This document shows positions 12,167 through 22,396 of a stretch of DNA of 64,000 nt, in pieces. The translations under genes and the position numbers were made by a program. The stretch is from an uncultured Flavobacteriaceae bacterium (GTDB lineage Bacteria; Bacteroidota; Bacteroidia; Flavobacteriales; Flavobacteriaceae). The stretch is taken from contig CANNBV010000006.1 in assembly GCA_947502975.1 (NCBI GenBank), positions 1 to 64,000 on the forward strand, read 5' to 3'. Below the pieces are notes generated by a model. The model searched no databases. It saw nothing but the letters and a program-made list of their open reading frames with translations, and was not told where the DNA came from. The stretch's first letter is position 1. Each line of letters opens with the position of its first letter.

Positions 12167-13579
12167 TTAATTTTTAATTCTTGGTGGATTAGCTATCGGA
12201 TTAACACCATAAGTATCATATAAATAAACTAAAGCAGTCATGGTAGCTGCACCCAATTCTAATTCTCTTTTATTCACTGCGTCAAAGGTGTCGTTACTAG
12301 CATGATGATGGTCGAAATAACGTTGAGAATCTGGTCGTAGTCCTGCTAAAACATTTGTATTGCTTTTTAACGGCCCAACATCTGCGCCACTGCCACCTTG
12401 TTCAAAATAGTGAATTAAATAGGGTTTAAAAAGAGATTTCCATCCTAAAACTTGATTAAAATTAGCATCATTACAATCAAAAGAAAATCCTCTTGGTGTA
12501 AATCCACCAGCATCACTTTCTAGCGCAAAAATGTGATTTTCGCCTTTAGCTTTTGCTTCTGCTGCGTATTTTTTACCGCCTCTTAATCCGTTTTCCTCAT
12601 TCATAAACAATACGACTCTAATGGTGCGTTTGGGTTTTATATTTAGAACTTTCATTAGTCTAAGTACTTCCATGGATTGTACAACACCTGCCCCATCGTC
12701 ATGAGAACCATCACCTAAATCCCAAGAATCTAAATGGCCACCAACAATAATATATTCGTCTGGAAATTCGCTGCCTTTTATTTCACCAATAACATTATAG
12801 GATTGTACATCTTTTAATTGTTTACAATGTTGACGAAAGTGGAATTTTGTATCCGCATCTAATTTCAACATACTACTCAATAACTCAGCATCATTGGTAC
12901 TTATGGCAGCAGATGGGATGCGTTTATCGTTTGGTAAATCATCATACGTCATACTTCCTGTATGTGGCAAATCGTCTAATCTTAAATTCATAGAACGCAC
13001 CACGACACCTATCGCACCATATTTTGCAGCTTCAACGGCGCCTTTATAGCGTTGGTTTACACAGCCACCATAAGCTTGAAAGGTTTGTATTAAATCGGCT
13101 TGCATAGGGCGATTAAAAAACACAATCTTCCCTTTCACATGTTCAACTCCTAATGTTTCTAATTCCTCAAAATTTTGAACTTCAACAACCGAAGCTTTGA
13201 TACCTAAGCTTGGTGTTGCAATAGAGCCTCCCAAAGCGCAAATATTAACAGTTGTAGTTTTGCCTTCTCCTGATTCTATATAGGCGTACTCTTTAGCACC
13301 TCGTACCCATTTTGGGACCATGACTGGCTGCAACCATACTTTGGTTAGTCCTAATTTTTCTAATTCTTCTTTCGTGTATTTTACAGCGCGTTCTGCATTA
13401 TATGATCCTGATAAACGCCCACCAATTTGATTCGACAAATGGTCTAACCACTCATAACTATTGCCATTGGTCAATGATGTTGTATAAATATTTTTTATGG
13501 TAGCTTCATCCGTTTGTGCTTTGGTTTGGAATGGTAATAGCAACAAAAGTGTCAACATACTTAGGTTCAGTAATCGCAT
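12167..13579 (-). CDS. M28 family metallopeptidase with PA domain
   Basis: IIVGGHLDSWDLGDGSHDDGAGVV, VLFMNEENGLRGGKKYA; signal peptide. Confidence 0.92.
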   Translation of the reverse strand: MRLLNLSMLTLLLLLPFQTKAQTDEATIKNIYTTSLTNGNSYEWLDHLSNQIGGRLSGSYNAERAVKYTKEELEKLGLTKVWLQPVMVPKWVRGAKEYAYIESGEGKTTTVNICALGGSIATPSLGIKASVVEVQNFEELETLGVEHVKGKIVFFNRPMQADLIQTFQAYGGCVNQRYKGAVEAAKYGAIGVVVRSMNLRLDDLPHTGSMTYDDLPNDKRIPSAAISTNDAELLSSMLKLDADTKFHFRQHCKQLKDVQSYNVIGEIKGSEFPDEYIIVGGHLDSWDLGDGSHDDGAGVVQSMEVLRLMKVLNIKPKRTIRVVLFMNEENGLRGGKKYAAEAKAKGENHIFALESDAGGFTPRGFSFDCNDANFNQVLGWKSLFKPYLIHYFEQGGSGADVGPLKSNTNVLAGLRPDSQRYFDHHHASNDTFDAVNKRELELGAATMTALVYLYDTYGVNPIANPPRIKN

Positions 13580-13790
13580 ATGGTTTTTTGTTTCTAAATA
13601 TAGGGCTTATGAAACTTTCTGTATCCAAAAGTAATCTTAAAATTGTCTCTCATAAAGATATTTAGTCTCAAGGAGATATGACTGTAACAGAAAAATAATG
13701 ATTTACTCAGTAAATCTAGCTGCTATTAAAATTTTTGTATTATTTTTATTATGACTCAAAATATAGGTTAATTTAAGAGTTGTACTGCAT

Positions 13791-14294
13791 ATGGCTAACT
13801 TAATAATCATAGTAATTGTAATGTTATCTTGGGTAGTTTTCGGAAACCTTGGAATTCACCTCTATTTTAAAAAGAAAAGAGAAAATGTAATTGAGAATTT
13901 GAATGGAATAAACTACGAAATGATTAATAATATCGTGACTCATATCTCTAAAAAAAATAGATTTAGTATTTCCTATCAGAGAAAAAAATCAGATGTAGTA
14001 TTCTATGAAAATAATATTTTAATACTTCCTTATAACGCAACCAAACTATTCAAACAATATCAACCTTCATTGCAATACTCTTTTTCAAAAACAGAAAAAA
14101 AAATTGATGGAATAAGCACTACGATTGAAATTGAAAGTATTATGCAAAAAGAAAACAAAATAAAACTTTCGCATCAAGGAATAGGTGGAATTTTAAATGG
14201 AAAGATGACAACTGAATTGGAATTCACAGCAACTGGAATTAATTTATATGAAATTATAAACAACAATAAATACGCAATACAACAATGGTTATAA
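13791..14294 (+). CDS. Hypothetical protein, N-terminal TM (first gene of putative cassette array)
   Basis: 167 aa ORF; followed by a hairpin spacer. Confidence 0.6.
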   Translation: MANLIIIVIVMLSWVVFGNLGIHLYFKKKRENVIENLNGINYEMINNIVTHISKKNRFSISYQRKKSDVVFYENNILILPYNATKLFKQYQPSLQYSFSKTEKKIDGISTTIEIESIMQKENKIKLSHQGIGGILNGKMTTELEFTATGINLYEIINNNKYAIQQWL

Positions 14295-14410
14295 ATAATA
14301 GCCGGTTATCGCCTGCTTATAAAAATCCTTTCGAATTTTCAGTTTGGTGTGTACTTGAAAAGTTAAGTGCTCACACACGCAACTAATCATAGCTGAGACC
14401 GTTAAGCAAC
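14278..14410 (+). repeat. Cassette-array spacer 1 (attC-like candidate)
   Basis: 5' arm TACAACAATGGTTATAAATAATAGCC matches 20756-20781 at 24/26; 3' arm CGCAACTAATCATAGCTGAGACCG matches 15832-15855 at 22/24; ends ...CCGTTAAGC (fits GTTRRRY). Confidence 0.6.
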
Positions 14411-14431
14411 ATTTGACAAAAACAGTAGAAA

Positions 14432-14671
14432 TTGAAATTTAAGATTGGACTTTCATTATTTTTTATCTTCGGGTTTTTCTTTTTCAGAATAATCGGACCA
14501 ATTATTACCAAAAAGTTGAAAGATTTTCATGTCAGAAATAATACCGGATTAGTTGAAAAAGCACCTGGTGTTTTTAAATTTTTTAATCTTTTTTTCAAGG
14601 CTTCTGCAATTTTCTGTTTAATTTATGTGGTAATGATTTGGACTGGATTTGTTACAATACCGAGTGAATAA
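14432..14671 (+). CDS. Small hypothetical membrane protein (TTG start in track)
   Basis: 79 aa with two hydrophobic segments, adjacent to the next ORF. Confidence 0.5.
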   Translation: MKFKIGLSLFFIFGFFFFRIIGPIITKKLKDFHVRNNTGLVEKAPGVFKFFNLFFKASAIFCLIYVVMIWTGFVTIPSE

Positions 14672-15207
14672 TGTTCTGGAAAAGAAAGAAAAATAAATCA
14701 ACGGAATTTAAATGTGCTGTATGTGGACAAATACATTCGGATTGGCCTGCATTAGCTTATAGCTCACCTGCGAATTACCACAACCTTTCTGAAAAGGAAA
14801 AATCGGAAATTGGTAAATTGGACACGGACTTTTGCGAAATTCATTACGCAGACCAAATTGACCGTTTTATAAGAGTAACGCTTACTCAAAAAGTAAAAGA
14901 CGCTTGCGAAACGTTGGAATACGGACTTTGGGTATCATTAAGCGAAAAAAGTTATTTAGACTATAAAGAAAATTACAATAATCCGAATCACGAAAATAAA
15001 TACTTTGGTTGGTTATGTAGCAATGTCCCTGAATATGGAGATACATCTTCAATTCCTTGCGATGTAATAACAAAAAGCGGAAATAACAGGCCAGAAATTT
15101 TTCCTCACGAAGATTTTGACCATCCATTAGTTCGGGATTATTACGACGGAATTTTAAAAACAGAAGCTGAAAATAGAATAAACGAAATGATAAAAAACCT
15201 TGGGTAA
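14671..15207 (+). CDS. DUF2199-like protein
   Basis: FKCAVCGQIHSDWPALAYSSPANYHNLSEKEKSEIGKLDTDFCEI..FIRVTLTQKV; CxxC near the N-terminus. Confidence 0.75.
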   Translation: MFWKRKKNKSTEFKCAVCGQIHSDWPALAYSSPANYHNLSEKEKSEIGKLDTDFCEIHYADQIDRFIRVTLTQKVKDACETLEYGLWVSLSEKSYLDYKENYNNPNHENKYFGWLCSNVPEYGDTSSIPCDVITKSGNNRPEIFPHEDFDHPLVRDYYDGILKTEAENRINEMIKNLG

Positions 15208-15320
15208 CAACGTATATAACTTATTGCTTGGTTCTCGCTTACCTACAAAATCCTAGCGGATTTTCTATTCGGTTTGTATTTGATTAACCACGCAACAAAC
15301 CATATACAAACACGTTTGCA
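15205..15320 (+). repeat. Cassette-array spacer 2 (attC-like candidate, clearest hairpin)
   Basis: GTATATAACTTATTGCTTGGTT (15212-15233) against AACCACGCAACAAACCATATAC (15286-15307): 17/22 complementary; inner hairpin AAAATCC-TAGC-GGATTTT (15247-15264). Confidence 0.65.
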
Positions 15321-15364
15321 GTAATTATGTGAACGCAATAAAACTGAAAAAATATATTTGCTAA

Positions 15365-15754
15365 ATGAATTTCTTCAAAAAAATATTCTCAATTAATACG
15401 AAGGGAAATTCTTTTCCAAGAAAAGAAAGATATCCTGAAAATTCAAAGGGCGATTTTTATGTAGAGAACCAAGTCTGTATAACTTGTGGTGCACCCGAAG
15501 CAGAAGCACCTGATTTAATTGAACATTCTAAACTTGAATATGGACATTGTTATTTTAAAAAACAACCTACAACAGCAGACGAATTAGACAGAGCAATTAG
15601 CGCAATGCAAGTTTCTTGTATCGCAGGAATCCGATATGGCGGAAAAGACCAAGCGATACTTAAAAGACTATCTGATTTGAATTTGCAAGCAGAATGTGAT
15701 TATACTTTGAAAGATGTACTTAAAGAATACAATGAAATTGATAAACAGAAATAA
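15365..15754 (+). CDS. Hypothetical protein with CxxC (ferredoxin-like annotation possible)
   Basis: 129 aa; VENQVCITCGAPEAEAPDLI...YGHCYFKKQP. Confidence 0.55.
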   Translation: MNFFKKIFSINTKGNSFPRKERYPENSKGDFYVENQVCITCGAPEAEAPDLIEHSKLEYGHCYFKKQPTTADELDRAISAMQVSCIAGIRYGGKDQAILKRLSDLNLQAECDYTLKDVLKEYNEIDKQK

Positions 15755-15767
15755 AAAAAAACTACTG

Positions 15768-15860
15768 CCAAAAATGTATGAAAATAATGCTTAAATTTAA
15801 TCCTAAATCTAAACGTTAGTGAGTAGAAATCCGCAACTACTCATAGCCGAGACCGCTGGC
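15768..15860 (+). repeat. Cassette-array spacer 3 (attC-like candidate)
   Basis: 3' arm CGCAACTACTCATAGCCGAGACCG is 22/24 identical to spacer 1; 5' TATGAAAATAATGC partly pairs with it. Confidence 0.5.
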
Positions 15861-15884
15861 AAAAAGCTCAAAAAAGATTAACAA

Positions 15885-16136
15885 ATGAAGAACACAGACT
15901 TGAAAAGTAAAACGACTGAAAATTTAGAAGCAGAATTGAAAGGAATTAAGATTATCACTTGGGCATTAATTGGAATCTTAATACCATTATTTTCATTAAC
16001 AATTTATGGACTGATTACGAATAAAAGCTCTACTGATTTACCTTTATTGGTAGTTGCAATTTCTTGTAGCGCAATACTTCCATTACAATTTATTAATATG
16101 AAGAAAATCAAAACAGAATTGAATGCCAGAGGCTGA
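15885..16136 (+). CDS. Small hypothetical protein with two TM segments
   Basis: 83 aa; WALIGILIPLFSLTIYGLI, DLPLLVVAISCSAILPLQFI. Confidence 0.55.
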   Translation: MKNTDLKSKTTENLEAELKGIKIITWALIGILIPLFSLTIYGLITNKSSTDLPLLVVAISCSAILPLQFINMKKIKTELNARG

Positions 16137-16150
16137 ATTTGAAACCTGAA

Positions 16151-16846
16151 ATGAAAAAATTACAGAAAGTCATACTAATAATCGTTGGATTGATTTGTTT
16201 TTCCCAATGTAAAAGAAAAGTGAATATATCAAATGACATTGCTTATAGCGGAAAACCTAAGATTAAACTTGACAGTCTAAAGAATTTAGACAGTTTAGAT
16301 ATAGATTTCCAATTAAGAGGGAATTGCTACGCTTTTAGTAGTAAAAAAAATGCTAAAAAATCAAATGGAGAAGCACACTCAAAGAATATAGCGAAGCCCA
16401 ATAATGGAAAGTTTGAAAAAGGATTATTCGGACTTTATCTGAACGAAAATGAACTTCAAAAAATTTATGAGAAAAATATTGGTCATACTCTTTATTTAAT
16501 CAATACAACCTCCAAGAATATTGATTTATCTGCTCAAGACAGTCGAATTGATATAAAAACAGAAGTTAAATCTAAAGTTGGATTATGGACTGAAATTACT
16601 TATCTACCATCAAGTTGGTGTGGAAATAGTTACCACACAATTACTCTAGGTTCTGACGAATATTGGGAATTTGTCCAACCTATATTTAAGGGAAGTTTTA
16701 AAACAACGCTTCGCTATAAATTAGAACTAGAAGATAGTACAATTGTATCTAATGAAATAGTGGCTTTCATCAATCCAGAACAGTTAGACAAAGACAGAAA
16801 AGAAGGTCATAAACCGAACAACATAATGGATCCTTACAACGAATAA
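16151..16846 (+). CDS. Hypothetical lipoprotein (track start 16139 is TTG; ATG at 16151 preferred)
   Basis: MKKLQKVILIIVGLICFSQCKRK lipobox-like signal. Confidence 0.6.
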   Translation: MKKLQKVILIIVGLICFSQCKRKVNISNDIAYSGKPKIKLDSLKNLDSLDIDFQLRGNCYAFSSKKNAKKSNGEAHSKNIAKPNNGKFEKGLFGLYLNENELQKIYEKNIGHTLYLINTTSKNIDLSAQDSRIDIKTEVKSKVGLWTEITYLPSSWCGNSYHTITLGSDEYWEFVQPIFKGSFKTTLRYKLELEDSTIVSNEIVAFINPEQLDKDRKEGHKPNNIMDPYNE

Positions 16847-16926
16847 AACTCAAAAACTTGGTAACATTATCTAATATTTTGCGTCTCTTTTGGCAATGAA
16901 AATTATATGTATTAATCAAAAAGAGA

Positions 16927-18003
16927 ATGAAAAAACGGATAATTGGAATTGATGTGGCAAGAGCTATAGCTATCATCGGAATGATAATAGTGAATTTTAA
17001 AGTCGTTTTTGGTAATACTGGATCCAATTGGGTAAAATCTGTTGCAAGTGTTTTCGATGGAAAAGCAGCGGCAACATTTGTTGTTATAGCTGGTATTGGA
17101 CTTGCTTTAATTACAAACTCTGCTATTGATCAAAAAGACAAACTCAAATTAAAAATTGCTCGAAATAGAATTATCAAAAGAGCTATATTTCTGTTCATTA
17201 TTGGAATTTCATATATAGCAATTTGGCCAGCAGATATTCTACATTTTTATGGTATTTATATGGCAATAACAATCTTGCTGTTGTCTAGTAAAGAAAAAAC
17301 TATTTTAATTTCAGCTATCTCTTTTATTATAGCCTTTCCAATACTAATGGCATTTTGGGGTTACGAAACGGGTTGGGATTTTGATACATTAAGCTATCAA
17401 GAATTTTGGTCAATAAAAGGGTTTATTAGAAATCTATTTTATAATGGTTTTCACCCAGTAATTCCTTGGACCGCTTTTATGCTATTTGGTTATTGGTTTG
17501 GTAAACAGGATTTACATAACGAAAAATTTATAAAAAAAACATTTTGGGTTAGTACAATCATTTTTATTGCTATTCAAGTACTTTCATATTTGTCTATTTC
17601 ATTTTTATCAGAAGGAAACCAAGATTCTGCAAAAGCATTATCCGAAATTCTTGGAACCAATCCTATGCCACCATTACCAATTTATATGTGCAATGGTATT
17701 GCAATTTCTTTCGCCATAATTTCTGCTTGTATAATGATTTCCAAACGATTTGAGAATAGTTTTATAATTGATGCTTTAAACAAAACTGGACAATTAGCTT
17801 TGACTTTCTACGTAGCGCATGTTATTATCGGAATGGGAATAGTAGAAGCAATAAATCCTTCTGAAATGGGAAAATACTCTATTGAATTTTCTGTGATTTA
17901 TGCGTTAGGGTTTAGTCTATTATGCATTGTATTTGCAGTAATCTGGAGAAAATATAAAAAAACAGGACCATTAGAGTGGCTTATGCGAAAAATAACAGAT
18001 TGA
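16927..18003 (+). CDS. DUF418-like / acyltransferase-like membrane protein
   Basis: MKKRIIGIDVARAIAIIGMIIVNFKV...AATFVVIAGIGLALIT, many TM segments. Confidence 0.75.
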   Translation: MKKRIIGIDVARAIAIIGMIIVNFKVVFGNTGSNWVKSVASVFDGKAAATFVVIAGIGLALITNSAIDQKDKLKLKIARNRIIKRAIFLFIIGISYIAIWPADILHFYGIYMAITILLLSSKEKTILISAISFIIAFPILMAFWGYETGWDFDTLSYQEFWSIKGFIRNLFYNGFHPVIPWTAFMLFGYWFGKQDLHNEKFIKKTFWVSTIIFIAIQVLSYLSISFLSEGNQDSAKALSEILGTNPMPPLPIYMCNGIAISFAIISACIMISKRFENSFIIDALNKTGQLALTFYVAHVIIGMGIVEAINPSEMGKYSIEFSVIYALGFSLLCIVFAVIWRKYKKTGPLEWLMRKITD

Positions 18004-18018
18004 AAAAACTAGTTACAA

Positions 18019-18140
18019 AAAGGTGTATAGTTCATTGCTCGGGTTTATGTTAATCGGAAAATTCGAAGGATTTACCTTAGGTTCGGTTCCTTTTGCTAAA
18101 TTAGTTGTGAAGCAATCGATACTAACCGTTCTAAAATATC
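18019..18140 (+). repeat. Cassette-array spacer 4 (attC-like candidate)
   Basis: GGTGTATAGTTCATTGCT (18022-18039) against AGCAATCGATACTAACC (18111-18127), imperfect inverted arms; resembles the spacer 2 5' arm (GTATA..TTATTGCT). Confidence 0.45.
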
Positions 18141-18709
18141 TGAGAACATTGAGTTTAAAAGAGAAAATATTTGAGAAATATGATGAATTTAGTTTACTTG
18201 AAAACCAAACTGAAAAGGACATTTTACGCTCTGAAATCAAAACAATACTAGCGGAATATTCTGAAATGGATTCCAATTGTTATCATCTGCTTGGACTTGT
18301 TGATTATGAATCAGACGACTGGAAAGAAAATATTGAAGCCTCTATTGGAAATTTTAAAAAGGCAATTGAATTAGATAAGGATAATTTTTTAGCTCAATTA
18401 TATTTAGCACACTGTTACCACGATTTGAATAGATTGGAATTGGCTTTGGAAAACTATAACAAAGTTGACAGAGAAAAACTAAAAGTGTTTCAAGTATGGA
18501 GATACACAAAACTGATTGAACAAATTGGATATTGCCAATATAAGCTTGGAAATAAACAAATTGGAGAGCAACACTTTGAGGAAGTTTTGGAATGGTATAA
18601 AAAACTTCCAGAAATCGACCGAGCTGTTCCATCTGAATTAATTGAATGTTTACCAAAAAATCATCGGATTGTAACCGAAATGAAAAAGATAGAAAGTTAT
18701 TTAGAATAA
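18023..18709 (+). CDS. TPR-containing hypothetical protein (true start probably downstream of about 18140)
   Basis: AIELDKDNFLAQLYLAHCYHDLNRLELALENYNKVDREK TPR pattern; the first ~40 codons of the track ORF lie in the hairpin spacer. Confidence 0.6.
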   Translation: MYSSLLGFMLIGKFEGFTLGSVPFAKLVVKQSILTVLKYLRTLSLKEKIFEKYDEFSLLENQTEKDILRSEIKTILAEYSEMDSNCYHLLGLVDYESDDWKENIEASIGNFKKAIELDKDNFLAQLYLAHCYHDLNRLELALENYNKVDREKLKVFQVWRYTKLIEQIGYCQYKLGNKQIGEQHFEEVLEWYKKLPEIDRAVPSELIECLPKNHRIVTEMKKIESYLE

Positions 18710-18720
18710 AAAAACGTTTT

Positions 18721-18860
18721 ACAACAATAACCATAATTCATTGTGATTTTATGCCATACCAAAATAAAAGTATAAATCAAACGGATGGATTTTGGTAGAA
18801 TAATCCTGCGGATGATTCCGCATCGAAATCATAACCAAACCGTTAGGCACAACGTAACAG
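18721..18860 (+). repeat. Cassette-array spacer 5 (attC-like candidate)
   Basis: Starts ACAACAATAACCATAATTCATTG, ends ACCGTTAGGCACAACG (GTTAGGC fits GTTRRRY); inner AATCCTGCGGATGATT hairpin. Confidence 0.5.
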
Positions 18861-18908
18861 TACTATGACCGCGTCGTCTTCCTAGAACAAACTAATCTTA
18901 AAAGCATA

Positions 18909-19763
18909 ATGCCTAAAAATTTATCGGAACATAGAGAAACTTGGACAACGATTTTTATTTTTATCACAATTGTTACTATTATTAGTTCGCTATTTCATTT
19001 TGCAATAGTTAATCTATATCCTTCGCGAATATATATTGGAGGTCTAATGTGGTGTCCAGCTGTAGCCGCCATAGTTACGCTAAAACTAAAAAAACGACCT
19101 ATTTCTTCACTAAATTGGAATTGGGGAAATTGGAAGTATATTCGATTTTCATATTTTATTCCTGCTTTATATGGCGTAATCACTTATATACTAATCTGGA
19201 TTTTTGGATTTGGAAGTTTAACAAATAGAGAAGCTATTACGGATTGGGCAAAAGATCTTGGTTTGATTGGTATAGGAACATTAAATACTACATCAATTAT
19301 AGTCATAGCTATTATCTTATTAGGAACTATAGAAGTAATACGATCTGCAGCAACAACTTTAGGAGAGGAAATTGGGTGGCGAGGTTTTTTTATTTATGAA
19401 TTAAGAAAAGTGCTTTCCTTTACTGGTGTTTCCCTTTTTAGCGGGATTGTTTGGGCATCTTGGCACTGGCCATTAATTGTATACTACGGAGATAATGTAA
19501 TATTGGAATTAACAACATTTTATGTAGTTATTATAGCAATGTCATTTATTATGACATACTATACTTTTAAATCTAAAAGTCTATGGCCCGCAGTAATATT
19601 TCACGCAGTAAGTAATGTGTATATTCAAAAAATATTGCCTGAATTAACAATTAAGAATGAGGGAACGGAACATTGGCTTGGTGAAAACGGAATTATGTTT
19701 GCAATTGTTACGTGTATTTTTGGATTTTACTTTTGGAGAAAAGCAATTAAAGAAAAATTATAA
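18909..19763 (+). CDS. CPBP family intramembrane glutamic endopeptidase (CAAX protease/bacteriocin-processing-like)
   Basis: LGEEIGWRGFFIYEL, FSGIVWASWHWPLI, SLWPAVIFHAVSNV motifs. Confidence 0.88.
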   Translation: MPKNLSEHRETWTTIFIFITIVTIISSLFHFAIVNLYPSRIYIGGLMWCPAVAAIVTLKLKKRPISSLNWNWGNWKYIRFSYFIPALYGVITYILIWIFGFGSLTNREAITDWAKDLGLIGIGTLNTTSIIVIAIILLGTIEVIRSAATTLGEEIGWRGFFIYELRKVLSFTGVSLFSGIVWASWHWPLIVYYGDNVILELTTFYVVIIAMSFIMTYYTFKSKSLWPAVIFHAVSNVYIQKILPELTIKNEGTEHWLGENGIMFAIVTCIFGFYFWRKAIKEKL

Positions 19764-20014
19764 GTAAAAAACAGCGCCCAATGCCGTATTAATTAATACT
19801 ACAGCTGGAAATCACAGCTAATCTTCCCTGATTAATCATCCATGAAGTGTTGAATGTAATAGCTTCTCGACATATTTTAAGCTATCTTTGGTTAGTCGAC
19901 TCAAAACTACACACATCAGCGTGTATAATGAATGAGGTGTAATTATGACACTCGTGAGGCTCGCCTCGCTTCACCATACAAAGTGGACGTTGTGCTTAAT
20001 GTAAAATTTCATCA

Positions 20015-20755
20015 ATGAAAGACAAATTAGGACTAATATTTATTCATGGTGCCGGATTGGGAAATCATATTTGGAATGACCTCCATGACCTCCAACAGAA
20101 TTTAAACTATTTGTACTTAATGATTGAATTCCCAAATAGAAATGCAGGCGACAACGCAAATTCCAAATTAAGTTTCGAAGATTATGTTACAAAAGCAATT
20201 TCGGATACGAAAAATTTTGAAAAGCAAAAAGTAATTATTGTTTCTCACTCAATTGGGGGGCTTATTGGACTAAGAATCGCAGAACATTTAAAAGACAAAG
20301 TAGTTGGATTTGTTGGAATTGGTTCTGCAATCCCAAAAAACGGAAAATCATTTATTTCTTGTCTACCTTTTCCCCAAAAGCTAATAATGCCATTGATCAT
20401 GAAATTGGCAGGTACCAAACCACCAAAATCGGCTATTGAAAATGGATTATGTAATGATTTAAAGCCATCACAATCGAAAAAGATTGTCGAAAAATTTACA
20501 GCTGAATCAAGAAGCCTGTACACAGATAATTCTAAAACAGTAATTCCCAACGTAAACAAACTATATATAGAATTGACTAACGATAGAGAATTCCCCTTAC
20601 CTGTTCAAAGGAAAATGGCAGAAAATCTGAATTGTAAAAACATTGTATCACTTGACAGTGGTCATTTACCAATGTTAAGTGTTCCAGAAAAACTTACCGG
20701 AATTTTGAATGCATTTATTGATAGTTGTATGGAACAGGATTTAGAAAATATCTAA
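20015..20755 (+). CDS. Alpha/beta hydrolase
   Basis: GLIFIHGAGLGNHIW, VIIVSHSIGGLIGLRIAEHL, SLDSGHLPMLSVPEKL. Confidence 0.85.
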   Translation: MKDKLGLIFIHGAGLGNHIWNDLHDLQQNLNYLYLMIEFPNRNAGDNANSKLSFEDYVTKAISDTKNFEKQKVIIVSHSIGGLIGLRIAEHLKDKVVGFVGIGSAIPKNGKSFISCLPFPQKLIMPLIMKLAGTKPPKSAIENGLCNDLKPSQSKKIVEKFTAESRSLYTDNSKTVIPNVNKLYIELTNDREFPLPVQRKMAENLNCKNIVSLDSGHLPMLSVPEKLTGILNAFIDSCMEQDLENI

Positions 20756-20800
20756 TACAACAATGGCTATAAGTAATAGCCTGTAACGCGTGAAATCACT
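20756..20800 (+). repeat. Terminal partial cassette-array spacer
   Basis: TACAACAATGGCTATAAGTAATAGCC is 24/26 identical to the 5' arm of spacer 1; no matching 3' arm follows. Confidence 0.5.
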
Positions 20801-20864
20801 TTTCGTAAGCGCTCTCAAAAATAAAACATATTTTAAATTTAAACACTTGAGCTAGCAGATAGGT

Positions 20865-21023
20865 GCGTTAAGGATAGAAGCGGCATCCTTTTTATGGTTA
20901 AAACATATGTATTTTGATATTTGAGCACAAAGTAATGAGATTGCTTCGTCGCCCTCTCCTCGCAATGACACCATAAAAAGATACAGCGGATAGCCTGACC
21001 ACGCCACAGGCGTGGTAACGCCC
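20865..21023 (-). repeat. Intergenic repeat, copy C (GGGCGTTACC ... CTTAACGC), containing a nested repeat
   Basis: Minus strand: GGGCGTTACC..GTGGTCAGGCTATCCGCTGTATCTTTTTATGG...CCATAAAAAGGATGCCGCTTCTATCCTTAACGC. Confidence 0.65.
20937..20970. repeat. Nested GAGATTGCTTCGTCGCCCTCTCCTCGCAATGACA repeat
   Basis: Imperfect palindrome (GATTGCTTCG...CTCGCAATG...), the DNA behind common spurious HCEERATKQSH-type ORFs. Confidence 0.6.
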
Positions 21024-21124: not shown

Positions 21125-22396
21125 TTACACAAACAACGGCTTATCCTTCATCATAGTATTTACACGTGCTTTTACCGATTCTAAAGTCGCTTCGTTATCG
21201 AAATTAGTAATGACCTCGTCTATTAGCTCTACTATCACTTTCATGTCGTCTTCCTTACAACCACGTGTGGTGATTGCAGCAGTACCTAAACGAATACCTG
21301 AAGTTACAAATGGTGATTTATCATCAAATGGCACCATGTTTTTATTTGCGGTAATATCTGCTTTTACTAAGGCTTGCTCTGCATCTTTTCCAGAAACGTT
21401 TTTGTTTCTAAGGTCGATAAGCATCATGTGGTTATCGGTTCCTCCAGAAATGATGTTGTAATCTTTAGCAACTAATGCCTCGGCCATTGCTGATGCATTC
21501 TTTTTTACTTGTAATTGGTAGTTTAAAAACTCATCTGTTAATGCCTCACCAAATGCAATTGCTTTTGCTGCGATGATATGTTCTAAAGGCCCGCCTTGGT
21601 TTCCTGGGAAAACAGCTGAATCTAACAACGACGACATTTTTCTTAATTTTCCACTCTTTAGAGTGATACCAAATGGGTTATCAAAATCTTTTCCCATCAT
21701 AATCATACCTCCTCTTGGACCTCTTAAGGTTTTATGCGTTGTTGTGGTTACAACGTGACAATGTGGTAACGGATCGTTTAAAATACCTTTAGCGATAAGT
21801 CCTGCAGGATGTGAAATATCTGCCAATAAAATAGCACCAACGCTATCGGCAATGTCTCTAAAACGCTTAAAATCTATATCTCTTGAATATGCAGACGCCC
21901 CAGCGATAATAAGCTTAGGTTGCTCTTTTGTAGCAATCTCCTGAATTTTATCGTAGTTCAACACACCTGTGTCCTTTTCAACACCATAAAACACTGGATT
22001 GTACAAACGCCCTGAAAAGTTTACTGGCGACCCATGTGTTAAATGCCCTCCGTGTGACAAATCGAAACCTAAAATAGTATCTCCAGGCTTAATACAAGCG
22101 TGGTATACTGCAGTGTTAGCCTGACTTCCAGAGTGTGGTTGTACATTTACATACTCCGCATTAAACAAAGCTTTGGCTCTATCAATAGCTATTTGCTCTA
22201 CTTCGTCAACCACCTCACAGCCGCCGTAGTAACGCTTGCCTGGATACCCTTCAGCATACTTATTGGTTAATACAGAACCGCCAGCTTCCATCACTTGGTC
22301 ACTAACAAAATTCTCTGATGCTATAAGTTCTATACCATGTAATTGGCGCTCTTTTTCGGCTTGAATAAGTTCAAAAATTTGTTCGTCGCGTTGCAT
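21125..22396 (-). CDS. glyA: Serine hydroxymethyltransferase
   Basis: 423 aa; [46 protein letters not shown]. Confidence 0.98.

Follow-up and report, generated by a model that had tools for sequence, protein, structure and literature searches.

What kind of element places about ten plus-strand genes, in seven units with related palindromic spacers between them, next to a peptidase gene and a glyA-like gene of an uncultured Flavobacteriaceae bacterium? The region in question, 13779–20806, lies in a stretch of 64,000 nucleotides (nt) from contig CANNBV010000006.1 (assembly GCA_947502975.1), which was analysed as a whole and which we call the window. A sequence-only reading had seen about ten genes in roughly seven units with related spacers, and had proposed either a cluster of attC sites lacking an integron integrase (CALIN) or an analogous cassette system; the units are there, as seven cassettes. 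With a probability of roughly 90%, we conclude that the window carries a decayed array of about seven cassettes belonging to an integron-like capture system of Bacteroidota, as comparison with related sequences suggests. Judged on the same basis, the system appears to work in the manner of an integron without being one of the IntI type.

Private ends and the junction between units

If the units are cassettes, the start of each should match the outer arm of its own 3' site, because the two adjoin in an excised circle; if the spacers are plain hairpins, the outer arm should instead match the opposite arm of its spacer. Across 248 cassettes in arrays of the host, its relatives and one Persicobacter plasmid, own start and own 3' end matched at a mean of 5.03 of 6 positions, perfectly so in 171, whereas shuffled partners gave 2.12 (standard deviation 0.08) and the comparison within one site gave 2.29. 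Where at least five of the six positions matched (191 cassettes), the match spans 14 nt and then ends, and position 11 of the start is A in every one of the 191 and almost never paired. Cassettes join at G^TT, and each site opens with the reverse complement of the first 14 nt of its own cassette. A control set of ten class 1 plasmid integron cassettes showed a match only to about position 7. From the own-end test and this control it follows that the cassette principle is the one used by integrons, except that the arm is about twice as long and has a mismatch built in. The box consensus is NNNYAAC/GTTRNNN, in which AAC/GTT is invariant, the fourth base is Y/R and positions 5–7 depart from RYY/RRY; the fit to GTTRRRY that had been proposed for the spacer ends therefore holds for GTTR and fails at positions 5–7. 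Within the window, the own end of cassette 1, ATACGCAATACAAC (14270–14283), pairs with its own start at 12 of 14 positions. Over 10 nt, units 1 to 7 match their own ends at 9, 7, 8, 4, 8, 2 and 6 positions, and for units 1, 2, 3 and 5 no other partner matches as well as the own one.

These matches bear on the plainest alternative, in which the spacers are ordinary structured elements, such as terminators, repetitive extragenic palindrome (REP)-like repeats or RNAs of 3' untranslated regions, with no role in moving genes. The spacers are indeed intergenic hairpins, and when 45 sites were folded, both strands folded better than shuffled sequence (mean z of −3.2 for the top strand and −3.9 for the bottom). 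However, the outer arm pairs with its own cassette's start and not with the other arm of its spacer, cassettes have been duplicated and inserted with junctions at GTT, and a recombinase heads the arrays of relatives, as described below. Nor is such a family present in Rfam, a search of which returned nothing over the spacers and a single match, Flavo-1 RNA at 20850–21004, outside the array. We regard ordinary elements as scarcely credible here.

Movement of units and spread of the sites

Units move as wholes. In 98 pairs of similar full-length cassettes at different places, mean identity is 97% over the first 40 nt but drops to 42% over the 60 nt past the 3' GTT. The window locus itself records a gain: the gap between the peptidase gene and glyA measures 7.4 kb in the window compared with 250–340 nt in three related genomes (G009, G001 and G005). 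At this locus G009 has a lone hairpin, TTCGTTTAAC...GTTAAACGAAC, and G007 and G003 carry one cassette each, a different one in either genome, inserted in the corresponding hairpin at the G^TT position. The discrete gain or loss that the sequence-only reading had expected of cassettes is thus seen in related species, as an empty locus and as single cassettes at the predicted junction. A pair of Chryseobacterium plasmids that share the integrase show 90% identity through the GTT after the integrase gene and are unrelated from the next base. In G007, a homologue of cassette 1 (80% identity) follows directly after a decayed integrase gene, at an attI-like junction and with the same start, GTTGTACTGCATATG.

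We built a covariance model of the site, R1, from 47 copies; 80 copies aligned end to end and fell into two main subfamilies. RNAalifold gave R1 just 12 base pairs, and the model acts mostly as a sequence profile. Searched against the 64-kb window, it recovered six sites at E<0.05, all on the plus strand and all in spacers of the sequence-only reading, and the next best match had E=0.12. The related repeats quoted earlier from these spacers are both present, and a longer alignment joins the copies at 14268 and 20746 over 39 nt (85% identity).

The sites extend far beyond the window. BLAST with the first spacer found further copies in the host genome, as well as copies in 23 of the 60 genomes sampled as relatives and on plasmids of Persicobacter and Flagellimonas. 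The host genome holds 64 sites, grouped in several clusters, and one or more sites occur in 216 of the 251 genomes sampled from its family, so the spacers are not a chance occurrence. One complete genome has about 100 cassettes. A class-wide sample gave R1 matches in 30 of 198 genomes, mostly weak outside the family, and the site family is largely confined to Flavobacteriaceae. Three viral contigs carry the core hairpin; a search of phage records for the sites gave no match, and no viral reservoir was found.

Several further occurrences deserve mention in their own right. A second, larger cluster lies on the minus strand of the window's own contig, outside the window (host G000, C6:105478–112764). 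The 405-kb plasmid pPP2 of Persicobacter psychrovividus (L059), a member of another order, Cytophagales, bears about 26 cassettes with these sites. The mobilizable Flagellimonas marinaquae plasmid NZ_CP092416 has a DHFR-family cassette bearing such sites (L060, 7295–8148) beside ermF and a Tn3-family transposase; the start of this cassette, GTTGGCAT, perfectly complements its own end. Contigs of draft genomes often stop at a site or just past the integrase (G008 C6 and C20; L127 and L125), as would be expected if repeated sites break assemblies.

The recombinase of related arrays

In relatives, a tyrosine recombinase of 370–402 amino acids (aa) lies just upstream of the arrays and points toward them, and the first cassette junction follows about 20–250 nt past its stop codon. 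The array starts at this attI-like junction next to the integrase, a feature present in relatives and not in the window. In loci fetched solely because they encode a relative of the recombinase, every one of the 32 site matches was downstream of it and on its strand. The end rule alone, used with no site model, picked out 14 loci with 10 of 11 matches, a level that none of the 94 controls attained; seven of them had 9. By this rule only, chains of six cassettes were found in Rufibacter (52–54-nt cores), four in Arundinibacter (118 nt) and three in Saccharibacillus kuerlensis (82 nt), and a first cassette only in a Spirochaetota metagenome-assembled genome (L148; 10/11) and in Paenibacillus sp. 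NFR01 (L173; 9/11). The S. kuerlensis locus (L169), L173 and L148 have their end-rule cassettes directly after a related integrase outside Bacteroidota. A promoter-like TAnnTTTG occurs near the integrase end, before the junction, at 13 of 27 loci (2.1 expected).

Active-site residues are invariant in the aligned integrases, and the catalytic part is closest to XerA in sequence and fold. About 43 residues of the IntI structure 2a3v, which make up the IntI insertion, have no counterpart in the array integrase, and an extra N-terminal domain of about 95 residues is partly beta-stranded in a predicted model (pLDDT 81; pTM 0.51, leaving the arrangement of domains unsure). For the integrase shown in full, the top family is NCBIfam NF040815, which matches 16 of 16; the same aligned sequence scores 215 bits with TIGR02249 (IntI), below the cut-off of 265. 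Four IntI sequences from the phylum group apart in the tree, in a clade with full support. Two sets of candidates for the role of cassette integrase were rejected: the 272-aa XerA of the Flagellimonas plasmid, near the DHFR-like cassette, which resembles an enzyme of G012 that has no junction after its stop codon, and, for the same reason, the 355-aa-type enzymes of G008, G009 and G022.

That the sequence-only reading found no integrase in the window can be extended to the host genome as a whole, which encodes enzymes like XerC and XerD plus two further recombinases, but none of the cassette type. Loss of an integrase in gaps of the assembly is possible, but unlikely at 99.99% completeness. 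An integrase-free genome is also what a true CALIN would leave, that is, a canonical attC cluster whose cassettes were recruited by a standard IntI that has since been lost. R boxes that end in AAC and begin with GTTR agree with this, as does the presence of IntI over its cut-off in 85 of 299 genomes of a phylum sample, in other classes. Yet within the window's own class a single genome of that sample (G095) exceeds the cut-off, and none of 23 relatives does; the integrases actually located at these arrays are without the IntI insertion; and the own-end match runs to 14 nt rather than 7, with positions 5–7 off GTTRRRY. We therefore consider a true CALIN very improbable. The part of the earlier proposal that stands is the analogous cassette system, with its private ends, discrete movement and a host without integrase; the strict CALIN probably does not, given the XerA-like integrase of relatives. 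The window array is CALIN-like and decayed, with at least six sites and no such integrase in its genome, and the sites are non-canonical in both box consensus and arm length.

In the integron-like system that we favor, the recombinase would recombine two sites at G^TT, releasing a cassette as a circle, and would insert this circle at attI or at a different site. Within the circle, the private 14-nt ends would pair with each other, giving a folded single-stranded site its outer stem, much as in an integron attC. Folded single strands may be the substrate, with the bottom strand folding somewhat better, and the mismatch at position 11 may have a role of its own. Cassettes could be expressed from a promoter near attI. 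In a host without the integrase, the array would be frozen between the peptidase gene and glyA and would decay there.

The window array among known systems

Because the cassette integrase is absent from the host genome, we read the window array as frozen and wearing down, and its units (Table 1) bear varied signs of age. Cassette 4 is probably a fused unit, given its length of 2.3 kb and an own-end match of 5/14. The seventh spacer, that of cassette 6 (about 19768–20002), was missed by R1, its site being nearly gone, and the right end of cassette 7 appears to resemble the lone G009 hairpin in its 3' half. The labels DUF2199, DUF418, TPR, CPBP/Rce1 and alpha/beta hydrolase, first given to the genes from sequence alone, were upheld by Pfam. 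Beyond the last unit, the Flavo-1 RNA (RF01705, 52 bits, plus strand) lies between the array and glyA, and Flavo-1-like sequence adjoins glyA in several relatives without an array.

Table 1. Cassettes, 3' sites and flanking genes of the window array; the first coordinates of the cassette rows are the seven cassette starts
Feature	Positions	Strand	Content	Own-end match or R1 score
Left flank	12167–13579	−	M28-type peptidase gene (assigned by eye); conserved next to glyA, 250–340 nt from it in G009, G001, G005	
Cassette 1	13779–14400	+	start GTTGTACTGCATAT; 167-aa gene 13791–14294; then 3' site	
Site 1	14270–14414	+	attC-like; runs into cassette 2 start	140 bits
Cassette 2	14401–15313	+	79-aa transmembrane protein 14432–14671; DUF2199 gene 14671–15207 (Pfam)	10/14
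Site 2	15195–15327	+		111 bits
Cassette 3	15314–15854	+	129-aa CxxC protein 15365–15754	10/14
Site 3	15759–15868	+	degenerate; GTT mutated to GCT	29 bits
Cassette 4	15855–18127	+	83-aa transmembrane protein 15885–16136; lipoprotein 16151–16846; DUF418 protein 16927–18003 (Pfam)	5/14
Site 4	18006–18141	+	degenerate	32 bits
Cassette 5	18128–18841	+	TPR protein ~18158–18709, start codon uncertain	10/14
Site 5	18712–18855	+	degenerate	23 bits
Cassette 6	18842–19988	+	CPBP/Rce1 protease 18909–19763 (Pfam); GTTAGGC junction	3/14 (lost)
Cassette 7	19989–20806	+	alpha/beta hydrolase 20015–20755; truncated site	9/14
Site 7	20748–20801	+	truncated; 85% identity with site 1 over 39 nt	20 bits
Right flank	21125–22396	−	glyA-like gene; kept in 12/12 genomes of the genus	

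A number of observations weigh against our reading. In the window, a clear own-end match is kept by units 1, 2, 3 and 5 only, and four of the six detected sites are weak (20–32 bits). Most of the duplicate cassettes come from one complete genome, G025, and some relatives of the integrase have no adjoining cassettes, so that the association is not universal. Finally, cassette 1 (13779–14414) and its homologue in G007 (L103, 1873–2500) share the gene and both ends but differ in the core of the site, which simple exchange at G^TT does not explain.

The likeness to integrons is nonetheless broad, comprising a tyrosine recombinase with its array, co-oriented cassettes, the G^TT junction, palindromic 3' sites with a variable core, starts complementary to the cassette's own site, duplicated cassettes and large chromosomal arrays. 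The differences lie in the enzyme and in its sites. Here the integrase resembles XerA, carries an additional N-terminal domain but no IntI insertion, and points toward the array, whereas that of integrons usually diverges from it; own ends match over 14 nt, with position 11 as a fixed mismatch, as opposed to about 7 nt; and the R boxes read NNNYAAC/GTTRNNN, where attC has the core boxes RYYYAAC and GTTRRRY. The target of Xer enzymes is a fixed dif site, at which they resolve chromosome dimers. The array integrase shares the sequence and fold of their catalytic part but sits at cassette arrays, with the additional domain.

A third known system is recombinase-associated acquired interbacterial defence (rAID), whose origin has been called an area of active research (PMC12247911). 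A plasmid search with the integrase retrieved immunity-gene-rich arrays behind a related recombinase in Bacteroides ovatus (L273, 9030–15810) and Parabacteroides distasonis (L276, 8880–14905), which match the layout described for rAID (PMC12247911). Over their 17 units, the own-end match was 9.1 of 13 compared with 6.6 for other partners, a value that none of 5,000 permutations reached; it covers about 8 nt, at a CCA^TTA junction. On the evidence of these two plasmids, to which the rAID label is given by layout and gene names, rAID arrays appear to be cassette arrays broadly of this kind.

Could the window array then be a rAID-type defence array of orphan immunity genes, part of the same system as in gut Bacteroidales? 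The layouts are alike, with a co-directional upstream tyrosine recombinase of the same broad family, co-oriented short genes and conserved intergenic motifs (PMC12247911), here repeated palindromic spacers; both have private ends, and the rAID-like recombinases are 41–48% identical to the cassette integrase. However, the combination of recombinase and array occurs in relatives, whereas the window has the array alone. Its cargo, in contrast to the immunity genes of rAID, consists of a protease, an acyltransferase-like protein, a hydrolase, DUF2199, TPR and unknown proteins, with no named immunity family, although the unknown ones may still be immunity genes. The ends differ as well, about 8 nt with CCA^TTA junctions and spacers of about 40 nt in rAID against 14 nt and G^TT here. 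We find it unlikely that the window array belongs to the rAID system itself.

Integrons have been described as nearly absent from Bacteroidota: work with IntegronFinder found first only cassette-less integrases and later one complete integron, in Salinibacter, and the gaps were called 'intriguing' (PMC9024848). The IntI insertion has in turn been described as essential for integron function (PMC8138268). A search of the open-access literature gave no description of these arrays; subscription papers lay mostly outside it, and an earlier description is possible. We think there is a good chance that Bacteroidota have an integron class of their own, defined by a XerA-type integrase that lacks the IntI insertion and faces its array and by 14-nt private ends with a mismatch. 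Such a class would be near-universal in Flavobacteriaceae, would reach Bacteroidales, Cytophagales, Spirochaetota and Paenibacillaceae, and would include gut rAID as a specialised branch; integron searches would have missed it by looking for IntI.

Overall, the end-matching rule finds cassettes without a site model and suggests a mechanism for rAID arrays. A cassette system without the IntI insertion also raises the question of how the reading of folded DNA arose in a Xer-like enzyme. For the Flavobacteriaceae, the arrays amount to a near-ubiquitous cassette system in a family where integron surveys had reported almost none.

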